This document shows, one piece after another, positions 3,129 to 37,636 of a stretch of 41,487 nucleotides of DNA (positions within the stretch are counted from its first letter, which is position 1; the number at the start of each line of letters is the position of its first letter). The DNA comes from a virus. A program made the translations under genes and the position numbers. A model generated the notes under the pieces. The model had not been told where the DNA came from. It saw only the letters and a list, made by a program, of their open reading frames with translations, and made no database searches. The stretch spans positions 1-41,487 of IMG/VR virus record IMGVR_UViG_3300022751_000008; one strand, written 5' to 3'.

Positions 3129-4425
3129 ACGCAGTTTAGATATCACAATGACAGAGCCTCAGGCAGAATTCCTAGCTCTTGATTGTAAATACCCGGCCTT
3201 CGTAGGGGGATTTGGTAGCGGCAAGACTGAGACAATGATCACAGCGGCTATTATAGATGCCAGCCACAGCAGTACATCAGTGATAGCTCTATATGAACCC
3301 ACGTTCGACCTAGTTAACTTAGTATTAGCACCTAGACTAGAGGCCAGACTTAGGGAATATGGGATAGCTGCTAATCACAATAAACAAGACCATATAATTT
3401 ACACCTCAGCAAGTCAGTTCGGTGATTTTGTATTTAGAAGCATGGATAAGCCCGAGCGTATTATTGCTTATGAAAGTTATAGATGTCACATAGACGAGTT
3501 AGACACATTAAAACAAAATCATGCTCAAGATATTTGGCGTAAGATATTAGGGCGTAACAGACAAGTTCCCAAAGACCTTTTAGATGTTCATAAGGTACAG
3601 AATAGTAAGACAGGTAAGCTAGAAGCATTCAATAGAGCAAGTGTGTATACAACCCCAGAGGGCTATCGCTTTGTTTATGACAGATGGAAGAAGAGGGCCT
3701 CAGACGATTACAGGATAGTGCACGCTGCAACCACCTCTAACCCTTTCGTAGAAGATAGTTACGTAGAAAGTTTAAGAGAAGAATACCCGGCTGAATTAGC
3801 AGAGGCTTATATACAAGGACAGTTCGTCAACTTAACCTCTGGTACAGTGTATAACGCTTACAATAGAGTGATACACAGAAGTCAAGAGGCAATAAGACCT
3901 GGCGAAAATCTATACATAGGTTGTGACTTTAACAAACGTAATTGTGCTTTCACCACATATGTGAAACGTGATGGTGGTAAATGGCATGCAGTAGATGAGG
4001 GGTCGGGAATATATGACACCTTCGAGATGATAAGAATTTTAAAAGAAAGATATTTTGGTCACACAATAGCTATGTATCCTGATGCCTCAGGTGCTAGTGA
4101 GAAGACTTCAGCGGCTAAGTCAGACATAGCATTATTAAGCGAAGCAGGGTTTCACATAAGAGCTAATAGGAAGAACCCTGGAGTAAGAGACAGGATTAAT
4201 GCCTCTAACAGAGCCTTCGGTGATGGCAGAGTGTTAGTGAATGATAGCAGATGCCCTAACGTAGCAAGATGTCTAGAACAACAAGCTTATAAAGACAACG
4301 GTGACCCTGATAAAGACTCGGGCAACGATCACCAGAACGATGCAACGACATACGTATTAGCATTTGAAATGCCAATCAGAAAGCCAGTGTTTAACATAGA
4401 TTTTGATTTCAGTTTCAGATCTTAA
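3118..4425 (+). CDS. terL: terminase large subunit
   Basis: The ATPase domain carries Walker A GGFGSGKT at residues 30-37 and Walker B CHIDELD at 123-129 with catalytic Glu127. The C-terminal RNase H-like nuclease has acidic residues Asp270 (IGCDFN), Asp322 (PDASG) and Asp408 (QNDA). The length of 435 aa is normal. The enzyme pumps DNA into the prohead through the portal and cuts the concatemer. The nuclease motifs look intact. The packaging mode (headful or cos) cannot be told from this protein alone. Confidence 0.95.
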   Translation: MATKRSLDITMTEPQAEFLALDCKYPAFVGGFGSGKTETMITAAIIDASHSSTSVIALYEPTFDLVNLVLAPRLEARLREYGIAANHNKQDHIIYTSASQFGDFVFRSMDKPERIIAYESYRCHIDELDTLKQNHAQDIWRKILGRNRQVPKDLLDVHKVQNSKTGKLEAFNRASVYTTPEGYRFVYDRWKKRASDDYRIVHAATTSNPFVEDSYVESLREEYPAELAEAYIQGQFVNLTSGTVYNAYNRVIHRSQEAIRPGENLYIGCDFNKRNCAFTTYVKRDGGKWHAVDEGSGIYDTFEMIRILKERYFGHTIAMYPDASGASEKTSAAKSDIALLSEAGFHIRANRKNPGVRDRINASNRAFGDGRVLVNDSRCPNVARCLEQQAYKDNGDPDKDSGNDHQNDATTYVLAFEMPIRKPVFNIDFDFSFRS

Positions 4426-4442
4426 CAGAAGAAGAATAATTA

Positions 4443-5813
4443 ATGTCAGTAGACTATACACTACCGGAATATAATCGTGCTGTTAAGAAGTGGGAACTAG
4501 TCCGCTCTATTATTGACAATGACGCTGGTCATTTAATTCCTGACGTTGACGTTAATGATATAGATAGAAGTATTAAATATAGAAACAACGCTATACTAAC
4601 TAACTTTACAGGGCTCACAAAGAATGGATTACAAGGTTTAGTATTTCTTAAAGAACCAGATATTAACCTACCTTCTCAGTTAGAATACATGAGAGAGGAT
4701 GCCACAGGCTCAGGTCTCAGCATGACACAGCTAGCACAGCAAGTTTGTGGTGAAGTGTTAGAGACAGGAAGACATGGCCTATTGGTTGACTTCCCACGTA
4801 ATGAAAACACCCTTACAATTTCTGATTTGGAAACTGGAAATTATGTAGCACGTATTCTTCCATATACAGCTGAAGCAATTATTAACTGGAGAACTGAGCG
4901 AGTTAATGGTAAAGTTCAATTAGTTCAAGTGGTATTGAAGGAATGTAAAGAAACAGTTTTAGAAGATGGTTTTGCAGTAGAGAAACTCGATCAATATAGA
5001 GTATTAAAATTAGTTAATGGCCAGTACTACCAAGAACTTTACGATGAAGAACAAGATTTAGTAGATATAGTACAACCTCTTAAAGTGGATGGCACCCCCC
5101 TCACTTACATCCCATTTGTGTTTGTAGGTGCAGAGAATAATGATCCTATTATTGACCCAGCTCCTTTGTATGACTTAGCAGTGTTAAACTTAGGTCATTA
5201 CAAGAATTCAGCAGACTTTGAAGAATCAGTATTTATATGTGGACAGCCTACAGTGGTTGTTTGCGTAGGTGACATACCAGCTGACCAATGGGTTGAGCTT
5301 AACGGTGGTAAGTTTAGATATGGGGCTCGTTCAGGTCATGTAGTAGGGTTAGGCGGTAATGCCTCTCTTCTACAAGCTAATCCTAACCAGTTAGCAGGGC
5401 AAGCTATGAAAGACAAGCTTGATCAGGCTGTAGGTGTAGGTGCTCGTGTGATCGCGGCAGCAGGCGCAGGCAGAGAAACAGCTGAAGGTGCTAGAATACG
5501 TTATTCAAGTCAGAACAGTGCTTTATATGTATTAACAAAGAACATGAACAGAGCCTTTATAGAAGTTATTAGAATGGCTTGTGATTTCACTAAAGACGCT
5601 GATAAATCAGAAGTAGATTTCGAGCTAAATGATCAGTTCTATGAAGATGGCGCGGATCCTCAATTGATAGCTCAAGCTATTATGATGTTAGATAGACAAG
5701 CATTGACAGTACAAGAGCTTAGAAATTACGTGTCAAGCACTGGGGAAGGTTTAATCACAGACCCAGAGCTGCAAGTAGAGATTGACGCTGTACAGAATGA
5801 TCCAACCGAATAA
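4443..5813 (+). CDS. portal protein, DUF4055 type
   Basis: This 456-residue protein lies directly after TerL. Its N-terminal segment (YRNNAILTNFTGLTKNGLQGLVF) and central text (QVCGEVLETGRHGLLVDFP) are typical of DUF4055 phage proteins that act as portals. Portals form the dodecameric ring at the head vertex that conducts DNA. The gene order terminase, portal, minor head protein, scaffold, coat supports the call. It overlaps the next gene by one base (TAATG). Confidence 0.85.
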   Translation: MSVDYTLPEYNRAVKKWELVRSIIDNDAGHLIPDVDVNDIDRSIKYRNNAILTNFTGLTKNGLQGLVFLKEPDINLPSQLEYMREDATGSGLSMTQLAQQVCGEVLETGRHGLLVDFPRNENTLTISDLETGNYVARILPYTAEAIINWRTERVNGKVQLVQVVLKECKETVLEDGFAVEKLDQYRVLKLVNGQYYQELYDEEQDLVDIVQPLKVDGTPLTYIPFVFVGAENNDPIIDPAPLYDLAVLNLGHYKNSADFEESVFICGQPTVVVCVGDIPADQWVELNGGKFRYGARSGHVVGLGGNASLLQANPNQLAGQAMKDKLDQAVGVGARVIAAAGAGRETAEGARIRYSSQNSALYVLTKNMNRAFIEVIRMACDFTKDADKSEVDFELNDQFYEDGADPQLIAQAIMMLDRQALTVQELRNYVSSTGEGLITDPELQVEIDAVQNDPTE

Positions 5814-6547
5814 TGTCTTTATACGACGATTTAATTAAGCATAAAATGCTTGTTCAGAAGTATGCTAAGAAGCAAGCTAATGAACTAAAGAAAGAAATGA
5901 AAGTGTTACAAGAGATGGCAGAGAAACAAATAAGGCTCTACGGTTATTTGAACATTAAACAAATAGCAGCTCTTAGAAAAGCAATGGAAAAGAACATAGA
6001 ACCAATAGTTAAAGAACAATTTAAAAAGCTTACACAGTTCTACAATTATGAGGCAAAGTTCTCCGCTAAAGTTCTTAAAAAGGATAAGAAAATTAAACAA
6101 GCTTTAGTTGTTCCAGAGCCTAAGCCTAAACAGATAGAAAAAGCACAAGTGGCATTCACATTAAATAAGCCACCAGTGCAGTTAAAGAAAGCTTACACAC
6201 AGTTTGTTCAGAAGAAAATAGACCAGACAGTACAAATACTAAGAGATGCTGAAGTTCAGAAACAAGATCCTTTAGATAGTATGCGTAATCTCTTCTTAGG
6301 CTTAGTGGCAGTGCAGAGTTTTATATTAGTGGGAAATGCGGTTAATACCACAATGAATGAGGCCCGCACAGACGTCATAGAAGCTAATAGCGAAGAGTTA
6401 GAGATAGAGCAAGTGCAGTGGACGGCTATATTAGATGAAGCCACCTGCGAAGACTGTGAGGCTTTGGATGGAGAGGTGTTTCCCTACGATGATTACCCAG
6501 ATTGTCCATATCATGCTAATTGTCGATGTGAGGTAGTGCCGATATGA
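5813..6547 (+). CDS. minor head protein, SPP1 gp7 / Mu gpF-like
   Basis: The lysine-rich helical N-terminus (residues 1-140) is followed by the signature C-terminal domain of the Mu F family: VQWTAILDEATCEDCEALDGEVF, then DCPYHANCRCEVVPI. Cysteines and histidine in this part could bind metal. In SPP1 and Mu relatives the protein is packaged in a few copies at the portal vertex and affects DNA ejection. It starts inside the portal stop codon. Confidence 0.85.
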   Translation: MSLYDDLIKHKMLVQKYAKKQANELKKEMKVLQEMAEKQIRLYGYLNIKQIAALRKAMEKNIEPIVKEQFKKLTQFYNYEAKFSAKVLKKDKKIKQALVVPEPKPKQIEKAQVAFTLNKPPVQLKKAYTQFVQKKIDQTVQILRDAEVQKQDPLDSMRNLFLGLVAVQSFILVGNAVNTTMNEARTDVIEANSEELEIEQVQWTAILDEATCEDCEALDGEVFPYDDYPDCPYHANCRCEVVPI

Positions 6548-21033: not shown

Positions 21034-21063
21034 ATTATACTCATGGTTTTAAGGGTGTGTCAA
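21034..21063 (-). promoter_or_regulatory. leftward sigma70 promoter of lysis cassette
   Basis: On the minus strand TTGACA (21063-21058) and TATAAT (21039-21034) are perfect with an 18-nt spacer. The initially transcribed region has three GGG tracts (complement of 21010-21026), then the iterons. It is divergent from the rightward replication promoter at 21086. Confidence 0.8.
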
Positions 21064-28981: not shown

Positions 28982-29758
28982 ATGACTATTAAACATTTAA
29001 TGATCCCTGATGTTCAAGCTAAGCCTGGCGTCCCTTTAGACCATCTTAAGTGGATAGGGGAATTTATTGTTGACAAACAACCCGATGTTATTGTATGTAT
29101 AGGAGACTTCGCAGATATGGAGTCTCTTTCTTCGTATGACAAAGGGAAGAAGTCTTTTGAAGGGCGGCGTTATAAAGCTGATATTGCCTCTGCTAAAAAA
29201 GCTATGGATTTATTGCTTGGCCCACTTCGTTCATACAACGATAAGGCTGTAGAGAACCACAGAAAGCAATATAAGCCACGTATGGTGATGACATTAGGTA
29301 ATCATGAACAAAGAATATCGAGGGTGACAAATGATAATCCTGAGCTGGACGGCGTTGTTAGTTATGATGATTTACCCTATCAAGATTGGGAAGTACACGA
29401 TTTCCTTAAACCGGTTATTATCGATGGTGTTTTATACGTGCATTACTTGTCTAACCCTATGTCTGGTAAACCCTACGCTGGGACTGCTCTTAATCAGTTA
29501 GCAAAAGCACAACAGAGCTTCTGTGTAGGGCACAAACAAACATTAGATATAGCTACTTATTTTAGCCCTATGGGTAAACAAACATGGGGTATTGTGGCAG
29601 GTGCTTGTTATCAACACGATGAAGACTACAAAGGGTATCAGGGCAATGCTCACTTCAGGGGTGTTGTAATGCTACATGATGTTCATGAAGGGCAGCATGA
29701 CCCTATGATAGTGAGTTTAAAATATTTAAAAGAGAGATATGGCAAGGAGAGTTTGTGA
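28982..29758 (+). CDS. calcineurin-like metallophosphoesterase
   Basis: The 258-residue protein has DVQ near residue 10 (the usual D-x-H has Gln for His), GDFADM near 43-48, GNHEQR near 109-114 and histidines later (GHKQ and HDVHEGQH). These bind a dinuclear metal centre. Phage members may process DNA ends or nucleotides; T7-like phages carry relatives near replication genes. The Gln substitution is seen in some phage members and may not abolish activity. Confidence 0.8.
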   Translation: MTIKHLMIPDVQAKPGVPLDHLKWIGEFIVDKQPDVIVCIGDFADMESLSSYDKGKKSFEGRRYKADIASAKKAMDLLLGPLRSYNDKAVENHRKQYKPRMVMTLGNHEQRISRVTNDNPELDGVVSYDDLPYQDWEVHDFLKPVIIDGVLYVHYLSNPMSGKPYAGTALNQLAKAQQSFCVGHKQTLDIATYFSPMGKQTWGIVAGACYQHDEDYKGYQGNAHFRGVVMLHDVHEGQHDPMIVSLKYLKERYGKESL

Positions 29759-29868
29759 TAATAGTGAAGATTGTCGCAGAGATTGAGAGGTTGCGTCCTG
29801 GGACAGAATTTGTATATAATAATAAATATTATGTAAGGACAGGTAACGGGTATATTTTATTGGGCTAA
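29755..29868 (+). CDS. small protein, 37 aa
   Basis: The GTG start overlaps the phosphoesterase TGA (GTGA) and follows AAGGAGAGTTT. The text (IIVKIVAEIERLRPGTEFVYNNKYY, then RTGNGYILLG) fits a tiny beta domain like short phage 'RPGxxF' proteins. It is the last gene before the large RNA and its stop overlaps no other gene. Confidence 0.6.
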   Translation: MIIVKIVAEIERLRPGTEFVYNNKYYVRTGNGYILLG

Positions 29869-29873
29869 CAGTG

Positions 29874-29902
29874 TTGACAAACAACAATAACATTGCTATA
29901 CT
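29874..29902 (+). promoter_or_regulatory. consensus sigma70 promoter for large structured RNA
   Basis: TTGACA at 29874-29879 and TATACT at 29897-29902 have a 17-nt spacer. The predicted start is near 29909. Together with 705-733 it is one of the strongest rightward promoters in the genome, and both drive structured RNAs rather than a gene directly. Confidence 0.85.
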
Positions 29903-29908
29903 GTAATT

Positions 29909-30486
29909 AATCCTTCACTGGCTTAAACACTCTTATTAACCGATTGATTTGTTAACGTTGATAATAGATGCATTAAGATAGGAACCAGCGGGGGAGAATA
30001 TGCCTGGTATACATAACTACCCGCCATATGGCCACATTAGGCGTTAAGAAGTGGATGAGAGAGGGATAATATGTGCTCGCAGTAGGTGAAAGCCCTGCAT
30101 TTTATATCTAGGACAGCGACCCTTTGGGTGATAGAGGCAGGCGAGAAACCTGGTCACAGAACAAAAATAAAACGGGCTGAGTAGTAAGTATCGATGATAT
30201 AAAACAAGTGAAGGAAAAGCTGCCTGGCATGCAGCGTCTTTGATCGGTAATCTGCCCGCCCTGTGTCTACAAGAGGCGTTAACCCGTAGCTAAGAGCCCA
30301 AGAGCTTGTAGCAGGTGAGAGCCCTGCACTTATTATGACAATCGCGGCGTGGACAGTGACACGCACCTGAGACATCATCACGTGACCCTCGGGCTAATAC
30401 AGGATTTACTAGGCGTGATACTTACGAGTGCAGGGCAGAGGCTGCACAAATGTATTAAGCGGGTGCAATTCCTGCCGATTGTCAAC
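29909..30486 (+). ncRNA. large ornate structured RNA, about 580 nt
   Basis: The 630-nt gap has no credible gene but is dense with stems. A long-range helix joins 29957-29965 to 30478-30486 (9 bp with one G-U) and closes the RNA. Inside are many hairpins with 7-8 nt loops: ACCC/GGGT at 30119-30129, CAGG/CCTG at 30138-30152, GCTGC/GCAGC at 30219-30235, GCAGG/CCTGC at 30311-30327, GCGTG/CACGC at 30347-30364, GTGCAG/CTGCAC at 30428-30447, and a T-arm-like GCGGG/CCTGC at 30459-30475. A module is repeated about 235 nt apart. Size, phage setting and style recall the GOLLD and ROOL giant RNAs; membership is untested. Confidence 0.8.
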
Positions 30487-30503
30487 CTTATTAGGAGGAA
30501 CAG

Positions 30504-30911
30504 ATGTCTGAAGAATTTAAAGTGGGGGAAAAGGTTTGGATAAGGGATGGTAGAGGTGGGGATACGTTTGCTGTAATTTATAGTTTAGATACTTTAGTTG
30601 ATCACTGTATTGTGCAATTTGACTGTGGAATAAAATCGGTTCAACATAAAAAGTGTATTAATAAATTAGTTAAAGAGTTTGACCCAGTAACAAAACCTCG
30701 TCATTATAATATTCATCCCAGTGGGGTTCAAGCAATAGAAATAACTGAACATATGAACTTTTGCATCGGAAACGCTGTCAAATATTTGATGAGAGCTGGA
30801 ATTAAAACAGAAGACCCGACAGAAGATTTACGAAAGAGTGTTTGGTATATAGAAAGAGAGATAGCTCGCCTTGAAAAACAACTGGCTGTAAAACATGGGG
30901 TGTATACTTAA
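30504..30911 (+). CDS. DUF3310 protein, possible nucleotide kinase
   Basis: ATTAGGAGG precedes ATG 30504. Residues 1-60 form a small beta domain (KVGEKVWIRDGRGGDTFAVIY). Residues about 60-130 match DUF3310: KPRHYNIHPSGVQAIEITEHM, then NFCIGNAVKYLMRAG. This domain occurs in T7 gp1.7, reported as a nucleotide kinase, and in many phage early proteins. The fused N-terminal domain could bind ligand or RNA. It starts 18 nt after the closing helix of the large RNA. Confidence 0.8.
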   Translation: MSEEFKVGEKVWIRDGRGGDTFAVIYSLDTLVDHCIVQFDCGIKSVQHKKCINKLVKEFDPVTKPRHYNIHPSGVQAIEITEHMNFCIGNAVKYLMRAGIKTEDPTEDLRKSVWYIEREIARLEKQLAVKHGVYT

Positions 30912-36874: not shown

Positions 36875-36897
36875 AAAAAAGCCCCAATTAAGGGGCT
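36875..36897 (-). terminator. intrinsic terminator of leftward operon
   Basis: Read leftward, AGCCCC, loop TTAATT and GGGGCT are followed by six Ts. It closes the leftward transcript that carries the small genes 38093 to 36983. Just before it a hairpin closes with TTGGA/TCCAA at about 36913-36937. Confidence 0.85.
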
Positions 36898-36982
36898 GGT
36901 GCCTATCTCTTTGGACGCCTAGGCAAGCGCTCCAACCTGTACACATACCAAGAATAATATATGCACTGGCCCAATCTGTGTA

Positions 36983-37066
36983 TTATCCTATGCGTCTAGC
37001 TTGAGCCTTAGCTAACACCACTGCTAATCTCTCTTTGTTCTGTCTTAGTAGTTCGTTAATGTTCAT
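36983..37066 (-). CDS. possible 27-residue basic peptide
   Basis: ATG 37066-37064 follows TTAGGAGAACAAC and opens 27 codons (MNINELLRQNKERLAVVLAK, then AQARRIG), a basic helix. It has its own promoter at 37101-37128. A ribosome site this good argues for translation despite the length. The downstream 90 nt to the terminator is structured and could be a 3' sRNA. Confidence 0.5.
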   Translation of the reverse strand: MNINELLRQNKERLAVVLAKAQARRIG

Positions 37067-37100
37067 GTTGTTCTCCTAATGTTTCTCTCTTCTTACTTTA

Positions 37101-37128
37101 AGTATAGACAATGTGTAGAAGAATGCAA
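37101..37128 (-). promoter_or_regulatory. leftward promoter for the 27-residue peptide
   Basis: On the minus strand TTGCAT (37128-37123) and TATACT (37106-37101) are 16 nt apart. Transcription would run about 200 nt to the terminator at 36897-36875, so the unit is one small peptide plus a structured 3' part. Confidence 0.6.
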
Positions 37129-37238
37129 GGGAATATGTATATTTATTTATACAATCTATCGATTGTTACATAGAGCTCCATAGCTTGCATATAAGAAGAG
37201 CTAAGAAGTAGGCACTAGGGTAGCCTAGGGTAGTGATA

Positions 37239-37265
37239 GATCGTTCAATACAGAGCTTCTATGGA
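37239..37265. repeat. 27-bp repeat, copy 2
   Basis: It is identical to 9889-9915. The surrounding non-coding interval 37067-37400 holds two tandem CTAGGGTAG units at 37214-37232, a third CTAGGGTA near 37371, and GAGCTCCATAG near 37172, the complement of the CTATGGAGCTC that overlaps copy 1. No gene is seen in the interval. Confidence 0.85.
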
Positions 37266-37293
37266 AGGATTAGAGTGTATACTAATGTGTACC

Positions 37294-37308
37294 GGGGGCA
37301 TGTCCCCC
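37294..37308. other. GC-rich perfect hairpin GGGGG-CATGT-CCCCC
   Basis: A 5-bp all-GC stem in AT-rich non-coding DNA, followed by GGAGGGGGAGGGG at 37316-37328. There is no U tract on either strand, so it is not an intrinsic terminator. It might be a protein or replication structure. Confidence 0.5.
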
Positions 37309-37400
37309 ATTGATTGGAGGGGGAGGGGTTGTGCCCACGTAAAAATTGTCAATATAATTTAAATCTCACCTAGGGTATCATTATGTCCCTCCTAAAAATT

Positions 37401-37532
37401 TTAAATCAACCCAGCTTCTTGTAATAAATCTCGTATATTCTCTAATACGTCTGTAGCATCTAAATCACCAGAATAATATCTCTCAATCAAAACCTCAACC
37501 TCTTCTACATATTTCCAATCACTTTTCTTCAT
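37401..37532 (-). CDS. small acidic protein, 43 aa
   Basis: ATG 37532-37530 overlaps the TGA of the upstream 35-residue gene. Text: MKKSDWKYVEEVEVLIERYY, then SGDLDATDVLENIRDLLQEAG, an acidic helical protein. GGGGATAGTAGC precedes it. The function is unknown. Confidence 0.6.
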   Translation of the reverse strand: MKKSDWKYVEEVEVLIERYYSGDLDATDVLENIRDLLQEAGLI

Positions 37533-37636
37533 GCTACTATCCCCAATTCTCTAATAGCATAGAGCTGGTCTGGCTCACTCTGCCATTCTTCCATTTCCTC
37601 ATAAGCTTGTTTATTCATATCATATGCTTTAGTCAT
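37529..37636 (-). CDS. small protein, 35 aa, truncated paralog of its neighbour
   Basis: It starts inside the upstream stop (ATGA) and ends inside the next start. Text: MTKAYDMNKQAYEEMEEWQS, then EPDQLYAIRELGIVA. The EEW--x-P-x-LYAI-EL--V pattern matches the C-terminal third of the upstream 66-residue protein, so it is a partial tandem duplicate. Confidence 0.6.
   Translation of the reverse strand: MTKAYDMNKQAYEEMEEWQSEPDQLYAIRELGIVA

Follow-up and report, generated by a model that had tools for sequence, protein, structure and literature searches.

A tandem-duplicated candidate structured RNA with T-loop hairpins in a phage genome and its putative relatives in other phages

The 41,487-base IMG/VR virus record analyzed here (the window, whose positions serve as coordinates, + strand unless stated otherwise) contains at 29909–30490 a proposed structured noncoding RNA of about 580 nt, which is gene-free, GC-rich and internally duplicated, and carries covarying hairpins common to other phages. 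It is very probably a real conserved RNA, and we give about an even chance to the whole of our best explanation, namely that an undescribed family of phage leader RNAs has here an enlarged member, duplicated in tandem. The internal duplication is the strongest feature of the sequence and was missed by the original prediction, which had described a large structured phage RNA carrying a promoter of its own and closed by a 9-bp long-range helix, likened it to the class of GOLLD and ROOL by size and phage setting, and left open whether it is a member or a new family. Comparative evidence supports the large structured RNA with its promoter, but neither the closing helix nor membership of GOLLD or ROOL.

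The RNA is made up of two tandem, diverged copies of a module of about 190 nt, module A at 29938–30121 and module B at 30171–30361. Their local alignment reaches a score of 82, whereas 300 dinucleotide shuffles averaged 31.6 and peaked at 55, and direct repeats of 31–45 nt with 71–79% identity recur within the RNA at a spacing of 220–235 nt. The blocks common to both modules are UGCCUGGYAURCA, CCCGCC-13 nt-AGGCGUUAA, AGGUGARAGCCCUGCA, and GGACAGYGAC, the last of which belongs to the region of the hairpin GCGUG-GACAGUGA-CACGC (30347–30364, pairing probability 1.00) and is repeated at 30111–30120. Where the modules differ, pairing is kept in places. The hairpin UAUG-CCUGGUAUA-CAUA of module A (29999–30015) becomes GCUG-CCUGGCAUG-CAGC in module B (30219–30235), two of its four pairs differing in both bases while the 9-nt loop is conserved; in module A this loop may pair with UACC at 30018–30021, forming a candidate pseudoknot. 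Both modules also contain a hairpin CGCC...GGCG followed by UUAA (30022–30047 in A, 30257–30282 in B), which entered the stem covariation comparison described below, and a signature hairpin of the form GNA-[GYNGG]-UGRRAGC-[CCNGC]-A with a 7-nt T-loop. The latter reads GCA-[GUAGG]-UGAAAGC-[CCUGC]-A at 30079–30099 and GUA-[GCAGG]-UGAGAGC-[CCUGC]-A at 30308–30328, so that the stem changes from GUAGG/CCUGC to GCAGG/CCUGC with pairing kept. Each copy has the arrangement G-N-A, 5-bp stem, T-loop UGRRAGC, and A, and they score 35.4 (A) and 36.2 bits (B) with R1, our covariance model of the T-loop hairpin, of which both are training members. A putative RNA in another contig, L209 (6280–7090, − strand), is internally duplicated too, with a score of 87 against a shuffle maximum of 63 and a repeat that includes AACCACCGUCCCGGCC.

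Consistent with what had been predicted for the locus, no plausible gene is present between 29869 and 30503, where the ORFs are short, antisense, or devoid of a start and ribosome binding site, and the sigma70-type promoter TTGACA-17-TATACT at 29874–29902 matches 11 of 12 consensus bases, with a transcription start expected near 29909. Five sites in the 41-kb window, this one included, have at least 11 matches. The GC content of the stretch is 47% against 38% for the phage, within the top 0.8% of 580-nt windows. The genes around the RNA run left to right, in the order helicase-primase, DNA polymerase A, metallophosphoesterase (28982–29758, with a Pfam match just under the cut-off and a PHROG match), a 37-aa ORF, the RNA, and a DUF3310 gene (30504–30911; Pfam PF11753, E = 8e-12) preceded by a ribosome binding site, AGGAGG, at 30493. 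The 37-aa ORF (29755–29868) is plausible, overlaps the phosphoesterase stop, and lies directly before the promoter. No recognizable terminator was found between the RNA and the DUF3310 gene, and the 3′ end of the RNA, at about 30490, is approximate; no tRNA genes were found in the window. A second gene-free stretch, at 705–1005, is headed by a perfect TTGACA-17-TATAAT promoter (705–733), opens with a long hairpin, GUGCCUGA...UCAGGCAC (fold z = −1.76), and precedes the terminase genes; it has no Rfam match, and positions 629–1005 showed no similarity to the RNA at 29909–30490. Nor is the RNA similar to the 745 nt without an ORF of at least 60 aa at 36888–37632. Two perfect sigma70 promoters on the − strand, at 21063 and 38460, would give leftward transcripts with similar G-rich leaders (AGGGGCGAAGGGG and AGGGCGAAGGG).

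The region had also been described as packed with stems, and stems with 7–8-nt loops are indeed present, but the whole fold is not more stable than that of shuffled sequences. Because its minimum free energy is ordinary (z = 0.24, 12 of 20 shuffles as good), the abundance of stems is no evidence by itself. The proposed closing helix, 29957–29965 with 30478–30486, is possible on paper, but 27% of shuffles yield an equally good one, and we rejected it as being at chance level; moreover, a perfect 9-bp partner for its 3′ strand exists at 30336–30344. That partner is the strand following the module B T-loop hairpin, a 9-bp complement of 30476–30484 (8% of shuffles as good), and this pairing excludes the closing helix. 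The corresponding strand after the module A hairpin (30100–30108) is a perfect 9-bp complement of 30196–30204, which alone is no better than chance. Such a helix directly after the T-loop hairpin is strong in contigs L331/L086, in E. coli PT62 and MB06232, and in L334, and at chance level in module A. The T-arm-like hairpin of the original prediction fared better, as the T-loop hairpin scan recovered it as a third T-loop hairpin, GCGGG-UGCAAUU-CCUGC at 30459–30475, with a similar hairpin in L086/L331. Across the RNA and 22 relatives, four T-loop hairpins were found in addition to those that define the sites (module B itself accounts for one), where shuffles gave 0.24, and since these further hairpins, in the window (30459–30475), L086, and L324, occur more often than in shuffles, docking of the T-loops can fairly be inferred. 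The long-range structure is putative, as no close relative of the whole RNA was found. Neither blastn in phages and plasmids nor nhmmer in 160 loci fetched by flanking genes returned a relative of the whole RNA, and pattern scans on the other conserved blocks gave only chance or coding matches, such as GESPA in capsid genes. The closest relatives by the mpe gene (L082 and L083) have no gene-free stretch of such size at the corresponding place, and the polymerase relatives of the window phage are distant.

The T-loop hairpin, by contrast with the whole RNA, does recur. A profile of both modules identified gene-free matches in L281, L209, and L086, the last being a contig fetched through its phosphoesterase gene (the product is 71% identical to that of the window) and not through the motif. 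The L086 stretch (3690–4472, − strand) is RNA-like, about 780 nt long and gene-free; TTGACA-17-TACTAT precedes it, and an 18-bp helix follows the hairpin. We then used a hairpin pattern with one stem pair left free, GYNGGTGARAGCCCNGCAYYT, which matched 24 IMG/VR stretches and was present in the gene-free DNA of 16 other IMG/VR contigs, gene-free status being judged by eye from frames, stops, ribosome sites, and terminators in GC-rich phages. The pattern fixed most stem bases at these sites, and only the free pair counts as evidence there. This pair is complementary in all 16 gene-free contigs (A-U, G-C, C-G, U-A, and one G-U) and in two of five distinct coding matches; the probability of 16 complementary pairs is about 1.5e-7 under independence and is estimated at about 2e-5 when related contigs are counted once (about 11 lineages). 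The free flanking bases at −3 and −1 are G and A in all 16 contigs and invariant in all 24 aligned sites. Over the T-loop stem, 99% of cells pair, and 13 cells carry changes in both strands, compared with 4.3 in shuffles. In a set of 84 loci retrieved through flanking genes, R1 matched only L086, itself a training member, and it also found an untrained copy in L328 (38.0 bits, D3-type loop UGGAAGC), 1.5 kb from the known copy. Genomes carry one or two copies of the element, and five IMG/VR sites lie 20–50 nt before an ORF. In L324 (151–174), a second T-loop hairpin accompanies the motif, both being upstream of a ribonucleotide reductase that matches a B12-dependent insertion domain. The pattern was not found in 398 Pseudomonadota genomes, an amount too small to prove phage specificity, and R1 gave one match over 120 Pseudomonadota genomes, in apparently coding DNA.

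A blastn search with the hairpin extended these observations to named phages: about forty Pseudomonas phage records, mainly D3-like, Acidovorax phage AP1, Acetobacter phage phiAP1, and a Klebsiella phage, which in turn led to E. coli prophages. Particularly, in YA3 and Shamal the element is located between the Q antiterminator gene and the holin gene, where the authors of the YA3 study placed a late promoter, PP4, after Q and a tR′-like terminator 224 nt on (PMC7326022). D3, FBPa47, and phPA-G have it between tRNA-Met and tRNA-Gly, FBPa47 keeping about 140 nt between the two; in the enterobacterial prophages and the Klebsiella phage it lies between a LexA-family repressor gene and rdgC or parB, whereas in strain PT62 its neighbors include terminase and portal genes. 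The annotations of D3, YA3, Shamal, and the E. coli prophages show nothing or doubtful small ORFs at these places. In D3 (L369, 2428–2742), the annotated orf86 overlaps the RNA hairpin and may be a misannotated ORF over an RNA.

Not only is the T-loop hairpin present at these sites, but it is preceded at a distance of 12–40 nt, in the window modules, the D3-like phages, the enterobacterial prophages, and the uncultured phage L335, by an upstream element consisting of a GCC...GGC-type hairpin and UUAA. It takes the form CGCCU...AGGCG-UUAA in D3, AGCC...GGCU-UUAA or AGUC...GACU-UUAA-like in enterobacteria, and CGCA...UGCG-UUAA in L335, so that three of four stem pairs are changed on both sides while 100% of cells remain paired. 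Automatic alignment of the full core failed on its variable linker, and the hairpins were aligned separately. Most other IMG/VR sites showed no such upstream element. A single family probably unites the D3, enterobacterial, L335, and window sites; for these four groups, both window modules included, the claim is strong, and at the remaining IMG/VR sites it is weaker.

As to function, our first choice, tentative and falling short of an even chance, is an antitermination-like action in cis. One large structured RNA of about 580 nt would be made from its own sigma70 promoter as the untranslated leader of an operon starting with the DUF3310 gene. Its putative core, shared with the other members, would comprise the GCC...GGC hairpin, UUAA, a linker, G-N-A, the 5-bp hairpin with the 7-nt T-loop UGRRAGC, and A. 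The leader, folding in the wake of RNA polymerase, would have its T-loops docked in the manner of the tRNA elbow and would keep transcription going through untranslated or terminator-bearing DNA, much like the put RNA of phage HK022. In both size and sequence (5-bp stem, G-C closing pair, 7-nt loop UGRRA..) the shared hairpin conforms to a T-loop, and the sites occupy gene-free, leader-type positions. The genes downstream differ from site to site (DUF3310, rdgC, parB, holin, tRNAs, and uncharacterized genes), as expected of a general transcription element, and together with the leader positions and the one or two copies per genome this suggests a general element acting on its own transcript rather than a riboswitch. 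Against this explanation stand the ordinary stability of the window fold and the fact that nothing obvious is to be antiterminated, since no terminator is recognizable before DUF3310; in HK022 itself, moreover, R1 gave nothing convincing, its match of 18.9 bits falling within a tail gene.

A possible reading, which we rate next, is that of a stable trans-acting ornate phage RNA, GOLLD/ROOL-like or binding tRNA or the ribosome via its T-loops, that would be cut from a leader transcript or a tRNA array. The large size and the duplication of modules in the window and L209, the several T-loops per RNA, and the members inside or beside tRNA arrays (L321, L334, L323, L326, L330, and the D3-like phages) all fit it, GOLLD and ROOL being likewise often found near phage tRNA islands (PMC12286853); the sites inside arrays (L321, L334, the D3-like phages) weigh at the same time against a leader acting in cis. 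However, a separate RNA sits poorly with the missing terminator before DUF3310, with the many sites 20–50 nt before an ORF, and with an element whose size varies widely and of which only the 5′ core is shared (about 140 nt in FBPa47). The contig L334, which has 18 tRNAs, also carries a permuted tmRNA at 5965–6299 (− strand).

We consider it rather unlikely that a convergent T-loop module has been put to use in phage RNAs of separate origin, in which case the window RNA would form no family with the other sites. The 24-nt hairpin is the sole feature common to all sites, in surroundings that differ in length and structure, and several of them may indeed share it by convergence; nevertheless, the recurrence of GCC...GGC and UUAA 12–40 nt upstream with compensatory changes (window, D3-like, enterobacterial, L335) and the invariance of the free flanking G and A argue against this. 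T-loops occur in cobalamin and TPP riboswitches, which, like the leader position and the ribonucleotide reductase with its B12-dependent domain match downstream of L324, would suit a riboswitch that senses a metabolite from within the 5′ UTR of phage genes. We regard this as improbable, as the downstream genes form no pathway and no riboswitch family, cobalamin included, was matched at the window or the related sites. Even less probable is a self-cleaving ribozyme related to twister-sister (RF02681), whose T-loop-like hairpin, GCCgGUGCAAGCCcGGC, is similar and gives a sub-threshold match in L324 (16.4 bits, far under the cut-off of 34, E = 1.4) aligned exactly on the T-loop hairpin: at E ≤ 10 no match of this kind appeared in the window, and the catalytic cleavage strand GCGCUCAU (opposite GCAAGG) was not found downstream in 25 of 25 sites, both window modules included, save for one copy with one mismatch in L321, inside a tRNA. 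Finally, GCN GGT GAR AGC CCN GCA reads AAGESPA, and pattern matches in capsid and other genes do encode GESPA, but the conservation can hardly be that of a protein, since nearby stops close the frame at gene-free sites (e.g., L281 and L086), the peptide changes while pairing is kept (ACCGG...CCGGU in E. coli), and the free codon bases covary.

The element occurs in the well-studied P. aeruginosa phage D3, in its relatives YA3 and Shamal, and in E. coli prophages, yet it is not in Rfam 15, and it is open to immediate testing in laboratory phages. If cis-acting, it would be another protein-free phage route to transcription control, comparable with put; if trans-acting, it would join the ornate phage RNAs and bring relatives of a size that permits study. 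In either case, the two-module form offers a natural comparison of two diverged copies. More speculatively, and doubtful at this point, it could represent a widespread unnamed class of phage leader RNAs in which docked T-loops capture a host component, RNA polymerase or the tRNA elbow, at operon starts, doubled here into a 580-nt two-module machine.

Among known large phage RNAs, the window RNA resembles ROOL in being phage-encoded, about 580 nt long, and rich in stems and loops, and GOLLD in being a large phage RNA. It differs from ROOL in its two homologous tandem modules with T-loop hairpins, and from both in having no Rfam match and no tRNA in the window; GOLLD, whose expression rises at lysis in one host, often exceeds 800 nt (PMC12286853). 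With Rfam 15, no match reached the gathering score in the whole window, only chance matches to other families and none to ROOL or GOLLD appeared at E ≤ 10 in 29700–30600, and no family reached its cut-off at any related site (window, IMG/VR sites, named phages, and prophages). Judged from these sequence comparisons, the evidence favors a family not in Rfam over ROOL or GOLLD membership. Lambda Q acts through DNA and polymerase and not via a leader hairpin of this type. The likeness to the lambda 6S or late-leader RNA (pR′ to tR′) is one of position: the element of YA3-like phages fills the leader between the late promoter and a tR′-like terminator (PMC7326022). HK022 put is likewise a leader RNA, with putL just downstream of PL, and the enterobacterial members are in a PL-leader-like position; put is small, however, measuring about 70 nt, and the study describing it reports two stem-loops but no T-loop (PMC9378689). 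Finally, although any docking or tRNA binding is conjectural here, the 7-nt T-loops of the UGRRA form, two or more per RNA in some members, recall the double T-loop modules that dock the tRNA elbow in the T-box, RNase P, and the ribosome (PMC4810234).
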